From Rufibacter glacialis (lineage in GTDB: Bacteria; Bacteroidota; Bacteroidia; Cytophagales; Hymenobacteraceae): a DNA stretch of 64,000 nt. The translations under genes and the position numbers were made by a program. The stretch lies in assembly GCF_008271745.1 (NCBI RefSeq), contig NZ_VKKZ01000019.1:806001-870000 (forward strand), read 5' to 3'. This document shows positions 16,780 through 24,150 of the stretch, in pieces (within the stretch, counting starts at the first letter, position 1; each line of letters opens with the position of its first letter). The notes under the pieces are model-generated. The model was not told the DNA's origin, made no database searches, and worked only from the letters and a program-made list of their open reading frames with translations.

Positions 16780-16852
16780 AGGTTGGAAGTATGTTAGGTT
16801 GGTGAAGATCGGCGAAGCCAAATTAGAGAATTCACCCGCAGCAGGCAACGCC

Positions 16853-22108: not shown

Positions 22109-22132
22109 AGAAGTAGAAGTTCTAACAAGAAG

Positions 22133-22193
22133 AGGCCCTTGCGCTTTGGCGGTGTTTTTTAGAAAACGCACCCAAAGCGCAAGGGCCTTTTTA
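22133..22193 (+). terminator. Long palindromic repeat acting as terminator after the dehydrogenase
   Basis: Perfect 17-bp arms (left AGGCCCTTGCGCTTTGG) enclose a core with GTTTTTTAGAAAA and are followed by TTTTT. It carries the family core but with longer, different outer arms, so it may be a repeat copy fused with a native terminator stem. Confidence 0.85.
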
Positions 22194-22655: not shown

Positions 22656-23012
22656 AAATGAAAAAGCCCGGAAAAACCGGGCCCCTTACACCAAACTAAC
22701 AAACAAAACTTTTAAACAAACCTAAATGCTAAACAAGATCCGGGGAAAGCAGCTGGCTGAGAGGGAATCAGGAGCTGTGGTCTTGTTTAGTGATACAAAG
22801 ATGCAGGGACTTTGCCCCATCGGCAACCTCAATGAGAGGAAACAGGCCTTTTCCTGCCTGAACTCAGATAAACACGGAGTGAAGTGGAAGTAGCAGGAAT
22901 GAACCCATTCACCAAGCCGCTGAAACCAATTCCAAAAAGAAAGGTTCTTCTTCAAAAGGTGTAAAAAAAGTGCCCATTCTTACGAAAAAGAGAGTTTTAT
23001 ATTGTGGAATAG
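22656..23012 (-). ncRNA. Candidate non-coding RNA, copy A of a tandem pair
   Basis: Read on the minus strand, a -7-like TATTTTTG (23015-23022) is followed by about 350 nt with no protein-like frame, ending in a clear terminator (stem GCCCGG/CCGGGC, loop A5, then T5; 22661-22682). Inside, CTAAACAAGA pairs with TCTTGTTTAG as the base of a large hairpin, and GGCAAAG/CTTTG forms a small one. The last 54 nt (22656-22709) are identical to 23267-23320, and blocks such as TTCACTCC, GGCCTGTTTCCTCT and AGGTTGCC recur in the same order in copy B. A structured small RNA is the best reading. A decayed pair of protein genes is possible but unsupported. Confidence 0.45.
22661..22682 (-). terminator. Terminator of candidate RNA copy A
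   Basis: A 6-bp G/C stem with a 5-nt loop is followed on the minus strand by five T. The same hairpin and flanks occur at 23272-23293. Confidence 0.7.
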
Positions 23013-23014
23013 GG

Positions 23015-23022
23015 CAAAAATA
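23015..23022 (-). promoter_or_regulatory. Putative -7 box for candidate RNA copy A
   Basis: On the minus strand TATTTTTG fits TAnnTTTG. The following GCCCT is shared with the start of copy B. There is no clear -33 box. Confidence 0.35.
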
Positions 23023-23266
23023 ATTGCTTGTCTGACGAAAATGGAGCGGAATCCTGAAAAGTGTAATTATTTCAGTTTCCGTTATCTGAAGGGCATTTAG
23101 CAATTTTTCAAGCAGGATGAAGGCGTATGAAAAGGAAAGCTCTTCTGGGAATTTCTATTAGCCAGCCTTGTTGGGGTGGCAAGTGGTAAACGAGGAGCCA
23201 GACAATCTTGAAAACCCAGTCAGCAGCTAACGCCGTTCATCAACTTCCTTCCACCGGATGGGAAGC

Positions 23267-23575
23267 AAATGAAAAAGCCCGGAAAAACCGGGCCCCTTAC
23301 ACCAAACTAACAAACAAAACCTAAATTCTTTTGAAGAGGCTGACCTTCATCAGCGGTCAACGGGGCAGCCGGTCTTAAACCTGTGTCCTCTCCCTTGAGA
23401 GAGGCCTTTCTGCCTGGTTGATGGTACAAAGTTGGCCTTTGCCAGGGCCTTTGGCAACCTATACCAGAGGAAGCAGGCCATTCTCTGGCTGAACCCCGCA
23501 AAAGAAGGAGTGAACCGGGTTTATACGGATCGTCCTGAATAAATTCATCGGAGAGCAGGTTTGGTGTAGAGGGCA
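23267..23575 (-). ncRNA. Candidate non-coding RNA, copy B of a tandem pair
   Basis: This is the second, diverged copy of the element at 22656-23012 in the same direction. On the minus strand it begins after CTTTTGCCCT (TTCTTTTG could be a one-mismatch -7 box), runs about 300 nt and ends in the same 54-nt segment with the same terminator. Shared internal blocks include TTCACTCC, GGTTCAGCCAG, GGCCTGCTTCCTCT, AGGTTGCC and CAAAG..CTTTG. A hairpin CCTCTC..GAGAGG is private to this copy. The 116-codon frame across it has unusual composition and no counterpart in copy A, which argues against a protein. Two terminator hairpins just upstream separate it from the gene at 23728. Confidence 0.45.
23272..23293 (-). 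terminator. Terminator of candidate RNA copy B
   Basis: Identical to the copy A hairpin: GCCCGG/CCGGGC stem, five-base loop and a T-run on the minus strand. Confidence 0.7.
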
Positions 23576-23582
23576 AAAGAAA

Positions 23583-23628: not shown

Positions 23629-23683
23629 CTTAAAAGTAGTCTATTACCAGAGCGCAAGCGGATAGAATAAGACTACTTTTAAG
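23629..23683 (-). terminator. Terminator after the small secreted protein gene
   Basis: CTTAAAAGTAGTCT pairs with AGACTACTTTTAAG, extended by A/T pairs. On the minus strand it is followed after CAC by about ten T residues. It lies 45 nt past the stop at 23728. Confidence 0.75.
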
Positions 23684-23727: not shown

Positions 23728-24150
23728 TTAAGGTTTAGAGGAGAGGAAAGAAAAATAAGATTTTTTTTCTTCCACCTGTCTGGGTTGCTCCAGGACCATT
23801 ATTTTCAAGGTTTTCTCTCCGGCGTTCCAGTTTTTGAAATGGGTCAGGTCGGTCCATAAGCGGTCACCTGTTTTCACGGCAATGGTTTTCTCTTGCCCAT
23901 CTGGAGTCACCAACTTGAGGGTTCCATCTGAGGCGGCATAGGCTTCCTGTTCCGGCGAGGCATGGAAATCCAGGAACTCACCCGGTTTCAACTCCAAGGA
24001 CAGAATGCGGAGGTGGTCGGTTTTCAGTACTTGCTTGAAGACTTTAGAAGTGCGGGAAGCGGGACTGCTGGGCGTAGTGCCCCCAAAGGCAGGTGCCAGG
24101 CTAACCAGGAAGCAAATGGTAAAAAAGGCGGAAATGAAACGTGTTTTCAT
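23728..24150 (-). CDS. Small secreted cupin-like protein
   Basis: A 140-residue exported protein. The signal peptide is MKTRFISAFFTICFLVSLAPAFG. The mature part looks like a single small beta-barrel of the cupin type: HLRILSLELKPGEFLDFHASPEQEAYAASDGTLKLV followed by GDRLWTDLTHFKNWNAGEKTLKIMVLE. The usual metal-binding His/Glu pattern is incomplete (one His in DFHASPEQE, another in THFKNW), so enzymatic activity is doubtful. It is monocistronic, with a strong terminator. Function is unknown; ligand binding or stress protection would be consistent with the fold. Confidence 0.7.
   Translation of the reverse strand: MKTRFISAFFTICFLVSLAPAFGGTTPSSPASRTSKVFKQVLKTDHLRILSLELKPGEFLDFHASPEQEAYAASDGTLKLVTPDGQEKTIAVKTGDRLWTDLTHFKNWNAGEKTLKIMVLEQPRQVEEKKSYFSFLSSKP

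Follow-up and report, generated by a model that had tools for sequence, protein, structure and literature searches.

Our analysis of a 64,000-nt window of the Rufibacter glacialis genome points to two sibling trans-acting small RNAs (sRNAs) of about 131 and 151 nt, encoded in tandem on the minus strand, whose shared seed would repress genes for scavenging and for the use of secondary carbon sources; we put the probability of this reading at about 0.6. The RNA family, its conservation, a covarying helix, the promoter geometry and the complementarity are read directly from the sequence, and from these we infer transcription, repression, an activator and a physiological signal.

The last 54 nt of the two elements (copy A, 22656-22709; copy B, 23267-23320; both minus strand) are 100% identical and lie 611 nt apart, and each of these ends contains an intrinsic terminator on the same strand. 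The terminator of copy B (23272-23298) was listed by the terminator scan, whose T-tail rule omitted the copy A hairpin (22661-22687); the latter was read from the sequence and folded, and is the same hairpin as in copy B. The first-pass annotation had described tandem paralogous small RNAs with a common, terminator-bearing 3' end, and the sequence agrees with this description. Hairpins between copy B and the upstream gene (23728-24150) likewise bear out its view that terminators insulate the copy from that gene, and the conserved blocks that it named follow one another in the same order in both copies and also in 29 copies from 16 genomes. In most genomes of the genus, copy B is preceded by a large gene, which we take for priA as judged by eye, and a gene for a small secreted protein. 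Two other hairpins were observed at the locus. One (22130-22191), with 29-nt arms that are 86% complementary, lies between the converging genes for a Rieske protein and a glucose/sorbosone dehydrogenase and is probably a two-way terminator. The other, a long-armed minus-strand hairpin with the loop CTATCCGCTTGCGCTCTGG (23629-23683), recurs nearly unchanged, together with about 20 nt before it, at one and the same position in all 16 genus genomes and is preceded in most of them by CATTCACACTCTATTTCAG; because its loop is conserved beyond the needs of a terminator, a further structured RNA may lie here.

At the DNA level, a search through 39 genomes recovered the element from all 16 genomes of the genus (Rufibacter, one of them named Sabulibacter), always at the same locus, and from none of the 23 others. 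These genomes yielded 29 copies, two in each of 13 genomes and one each in G007, G013 and G014. The exact 32-mer spanning the seed and the start of the terminator occurs in 13 stretches among 84,980 species, 12 from Rufibacter and one from Sabulibacter ruber. A covariance model (R1) built from 12 A copies, for a search of the kind proposed in the first-pass annotation, recovers all 29 copies; it scores copy A of the window at 154.9 bits and matches copy B over its 3' part only (23272-23361, 71.9 bits). Across 134 non-genus genomes of the family, searched under stricter filters, R1 gave only weak matches of at most 35 bits and no convincing homologue. The weak R1 matches fall in 16 places, one of them within the genus, of which 14 were read and two (G045:C52 and G142) left out; most of the 14 look like gene-end terminators and were rejected as homologues, and none of the 14 stretches contains TTCACTCC or CAT[AC]TTTGTAT. 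The Rfam 15 scan returned nothing at the gathering score and, when run permissively, only weak, implausible and unrelated matches, in line with the first-pass annotation, whose author knew of no RNA family with such a layout. In a tree of the copies, the A and B labels cluster, but the clades are not clean. Because all 16 genus genomes carry the element before the same Rieske gene, and because a 21-mer within it never varies among the 29 copies, the conservation is more than chance, and the existence of the RNA family as a conserved element is close to certain.

When the copies are aligned on a conserved TTTGTA, the pattern upstream is free of gaps in all 29. TTC[AG] stands at -125 in 13, at -104 in 22 and at both -84 and -63 in 29 of the 29 copies, followed by TTC at -42 (27/29), so that the array advances in steps of 20-21 bp; TTG is found at -27 (28/29), and a -7-like box of the form CAT[AC]TTTG is present in 28 copies, its first base being C in all 29, unlike TAnnTTTG. 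Beyond about -130 from this inner promoter, conservation falls to near nothing. On the minus strand of the window, the -7 box of copy A is CATCTTTG (22796-22803, with a -33-like TTG at 22824-22826), and the phased array of its promoter (22839-22924) has TTC starts at 22841, 22862, 22883, 22903 and 22924. Copy B has the -7 box CAACTTTG (23427-23434, with a -33-like TTG at 23455-23457) and a shorter minus-strand array (23470-23514; TTC starts at 23472, 23493 and 23514), the two outer elements being absent. The TTC elements of array A are likely activator sites. Direct repeats at intervals of about 21 bp ahead of a promoter would be expected of LytTR-type regulator sites; such a spacing is observed here, and a LytTR regulator as the protein binding the array is a lead only. 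AgrA is described as binding two direct repeats (PMC4227749). The promoter boxes of the copies resemble the TTTG / TAnnTTTG promoter reported for Bacteroidota (PMC7366714, PMC6847099), and their geometry suggests a weak promoter aided by an activator on two-turn direct repeats. Further arrays elsewhere in the genome were sought through the paired GGTTCA repeat: it occurs in seven places, one of which is copy B, and in the other six, inspected by eye over 220 nt each, no promoter array was seen. The exact, gap-free spacing in 29 copies indicates that the blocks upstream are mostly promoter DNA, and the RNAs are therefore probably just about 131 and 151 nt long.

The inferred small RNA A (about 131 nt, minus strand, 22661-22791) takes its start from the -7 box and its end from the terminator; the inferred small RNA B (about 151 nt, minus strand, 23272-23422) has an extra hairpin before the seed. 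The predicted fold of copy A consists of a 5' stem-loop domain (22728-22791, minus strand), in which a long stem P1 (arms 22779-22791 and 22728-22741) encloses an inner hairpin, followed by a single-stranded stretch and the terminator. In the 12 A copies, 91.1% of the pair cells of P1 are standard, nine pairs have changed on both sides, and the covariation of 0.190 compares with 0.096 after shuffling, with none of 500 shuffles as high. Across the 29 copies, the own arms of P1 pair at -13.3 kcal/mol, compared with -8.8 kcal/mol for arms swapped between copies (p=0.0002); the corresponding values are -15.1 and -11.7 for the A copies alone and -12.1 and -9.0 for the rest. P1 is poor or missing in a few copies, G001B among them. 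Pair counts from the alignment A4 are not our main evidence, because A4 follows from a fit to the model and several B copies are misplaced in it. The selection on helices suggested in the first-pass annotation is thus upheld for the 5' domain, by the covariation and the arm-swap test, and not for the upstream blocks, which are probably promoter DNA.

Behind this structured domain and adjoining the 3' terminator lies the U/G-rich seed TTTTGTTTGTTAGTTTGGTGT, 21 nt long and identical in every one of the 29 copies (22688-22708 in copy A and 23299-23319 in copy B, minus strand). The 5' domain diverges among the copies, and a seed conserved amid diverging RNA is one of the features by which trans-acting base-pairing sRNAs are recognised; another, a stand-alone promoter with a terminator hairpin, is predicted here from -33- and -7-like boxes that are each present in 28 of 29 copies. 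In the minimum-energy folds of several copies, the seed is drawn into other pairings. Its predicted accessibility averages 0.50, compared with 0.41 when the 5' domains are shuffled (0.60 and 0.44 for the A copies), which we regard as moderate.

Genome-wide, complements of the seed were collected in the genus at up to two mismatches in 17 nt outside the RNA loci, giving 39 sites, of which 38 were kept (one had the same context as another). Of these 38 near-matches, 21 fall at the first ATG of an ORF with 100 or more codons; the reversed pattern does so in five of 21 cases (p=0.019), and the background for sampled positions is 3.7%. For the non-genus set, 40 loci were listed and two dropped before counting. 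Matches to the full 21-mer relative to its control number 21:8 in the genus and 33:41 outside it (134 genomes; p=0.009); among the 33 non-genus matches, we looked at L086, L090 and those in the stretches with a weak model match. With the 17-mer, the ratio is 39:21 in the genus and 71:49 in 84 genomes without the RNA, which is not a significant difference (p=0.28), and the genome-wide 17-mer count was rejected as proof of targeting because the non-genus ratio is similar. A seed-like stretch, TTGATTGTTTGTTTGGAGCAA, is present in the terminator at the end of a conserved gene in four genomes from a different genus of the family (L250-L253), where it may represent a 3'-UTR RNA that pairs in a similar way.

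In the 30 loci chosen for inspection, the start-codon sites belong to genes for acetyl-CoA synthetase, an ammonium transporter, a DUF485 protein, MFS transporters, nucleoside and SSF symporters, DctP and a TonB-receptor-like protein, and several products have no family. Some recur across species, namely the nucleoside symporter (G000, G005), the SSS symporter (G000, G014), the MFS transporter (G000, G013), DUF485 (G003, G011) and the ammonium transporter (G001, G005, G011). The genome analysed here has 22 sites with up to two mismatches in 15 nt, compared with 11 for the control. Nine of them are at first ATGs, those of an MFS transporter, an SSF symporter, a nucleoside symporter, CstA, acetyl-CoA synthetase (acs), an S15 peptidase (site 16789-16803), TrpF, a TonB receptor and an unnamed protein. 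The MFS transporter leader pairs with the seed at a predicted -31.2 kcal/mol, which none of 500 shuffled seeds equalled; as the G000 candidates were picked for their match, their own p-values are no test. A-rich leaders and start regions are reported as normal in Bacteroidota (PMC6847099).

The acs leaders, tested regardless of any earlier match against 500 dinucleotide-shuffled seeds, provide the strongest complementarity. Within the genus, 12 of 16 leaders fall below p=0.05 (mean z -2.27), compared with none of 13 outgroup leaders (mean z -0.21); the acs orthologues share ancestry and are not independent observations, and the leader is not significant in the genome analysed here (p=0.21) or in G007, G013 and G015. 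For comparison, 101 other starts in the genus loci have a mean z of -0.17; 12 of them reach p<0.05, eight of the 12 being priA-like orthologues whose start is doubtful. In several species (L176-L191), complementarity to the seed and to its following bases extends over nearly all of the roughly 25 nt directly before the acs start codon. Pairing of the seed with the acs leader is thus likely. For cstA, which was picked from G000, three of six other orthologues reach p<0.05 and three fail. The DUF485 gene of the acetate locus has 13 orthologues in 16 acetate loci, and its leader in the present genome gives p=0.036; beyond the two discovery genomes, three of 11 leaders pass, which is not significant against the 12% background (p=0.14). 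The ammonium transporter was dropped as a general target, its leaders being patchy and varying. A wider regulon beyond acs is therefore best treated as a working hypothesis.

An unlikely but serious alternative is that the sRNAs are real and that the invariant U/G stretch binds a protein, either an RNA chaperone or a titrated regulator, the leader matches then reflecting the CA-rich composition of start regions. Twenty-one nucleotides identical in 29 copies exceed the 6-10 nt given for Hfq-dependent seeds (PMC7366714), the reversed control is likewise enriched at starts (5/21), and the 17-mer counts fail to separate the genus from other genomes. Composition would, however, leave unexplained that acs leaders beat dinucleotide-shuffled seeds in 12 of 16 genus genomes and in none of the 13 outgroups, that the 21-mer counts differ (p=0.009) and that target families recur. 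We consider it improbable that copy A works, solely or additionally, as a leader or attenuator acting in cis on the Rieske ferredoxin gene, copy B then being a relic or partner. Every one of the 16 genus genomes has the Rieske gene behind copy A, or behind the sole copy, in the same orientation and starting 103-159 nt past the seed, a constant arrangement that is compatible with copy A acting in cis. Copy B, however, has the same seed and its own promoter with no Rieske gene after it, and in G003, G004, G009 and G015 it stands about 4 kb from copy A with two opposite-strand genes between them; moreover, a terminator hairpin closes both copies, and the invariant part is the seed rather than a switchable antiterminator.

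The first-pass annotation had assumed elements of 300-350 nt, and one structured RNA of that length per copy, with the promoter of copy A near 23015-23022, would account for the conserved order of the blocks. A box of the TAnnTTTG type does exist upstream of copy A, as had been noted; it reads TATTTTTG (23015-23022) and stands at about -221 from the inner promoter; it falls outside the 200-nt profile, and no conserved block appears there in the part of the A-copy alignment displayed, whereas the conserved box is CAT[AC]TTTG inside the proposed element. The gap-free spacing that separates the blocks from the inner -7 box in all 29 copies, the end of conservation near -130, the conservation of the inner promoter in the copies and the position of the covarying helix downstream of it all argue against the long RNA, which we judge very improbable, and the predicted lengths of about 131 and 151 nt replace the earlier estimate. 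Short ORFs overlap both elements, as would be seen in a decayed protein gene, a transposon end or a plasmid or phage fragment. Yet the two minus-strand ORFs tested, which overlap the elements, had no Pfam match, the plasmid and phage collections contained no match to the elements, and the conserved place in 16 genomes together with the covariation already contradicts such an origin, which we can practically dismiss; the first-pass annotation had named a decayed gene or transposon end as what would overturn its proposal.

For the two sibling sRNAs, we propose the following hypothetical scheme, in which (i) each copy would be transcribed from its own Bacteroidota-type promoter with phased direct repeats, probably bound by an activator, and would end at its own terminator; (ii) a variable, helix-keeping 5' domain would lead to the invariant U/G-rich seed just before the terminator; (iii) the seed would pair in CA-rich leaders, 0-40 nt ahead of the start codon; and (iv) this pairing would block translation initiation. 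Likely targets would be acetyl-CoA synthetase, the DUF485 protein of the acetate locus, MFS transporters, SSS and nucleoside symporters and CstA. More tentatively, and with less confidence than we place in the sRNAs themselves, the pair might constitute a dedicated carbon-catabolite-repression RNA of Bacteroidota, in which an activator sensing carbon status would drive two sRNAs to shut off the use of acetate, uptake during carbon starvation and transporters for alternative carbon sources, their very long, invariant seed covering the leaders of these genes.

Such an action would be comparable to that of Spot 42 in Enterobacteria and Vibrionaceae, a single Hfq-dependent gene whose RNA represses numerous secondary-carbon genes through pairing close to their start codons; the lack of an Rfam match gives no sign of a relation in sequence. 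The Qrr sRNAs of Vibrio are also several siblings with a common core pairing region, expressed from activator-driven sigma-54 promoters, but they belong to another phylum and have other targets, and the Rfam scan gave no match to them. Closer in kind are FopS and GibS of Bacteroides thetaiotaomicron, described as paralogous sRNAs, conserved in a single lineage, with sigma-ABfr promoters and Rho-independent terminators, whose conserved single-stranded seed represses nutrient-uptake mRNAs at translation initiation regions (PMC11697453, PMC7366714). The proposed action of the Rufibacter RNAs is the same, with predicted complementarity at starts strongest for acs. FopS is reported to have 14 genomic copies and its seed in a single-stranded 5' stretch (PMC11697453); unlike FopS, the Rufibacter elements comprise two tandem copies with a structured, covarying 5' domain, a seed beside the terminator and phased repeats upstream. 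According to its paper, the FopS structure was deposited in Rfam (PMC11697453), whereas the Rufibacter RNAs have no Rfam 15 match, a difference that assumes the presence of FopS in that copy of Rfam. GibS and FopS of Bacteroides are the base-pairing sRNAs of Bacteroidota described in the portions of the literature covered (PMC11697453, PMC7366714), and no paper combining 'Rufibacter' and 'small RNA' was found, a search that covered the wider literature in part and does not show absence from print.

In summary, the elements represent a new family of a known kind, namely candidate transcripts of the base-pairing sRNA type similar to GibS and FopS. It would give the Rufibacter branch a family whose promoter logic is its own and for which a concrete set of candidate targets is at hand, and riboregulation outside Bacteroides could then be tested in another genus. 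If the proposed regulon is true, the two RNAs would provide a mechanism for ranking carbon sources in Bacteroidota.
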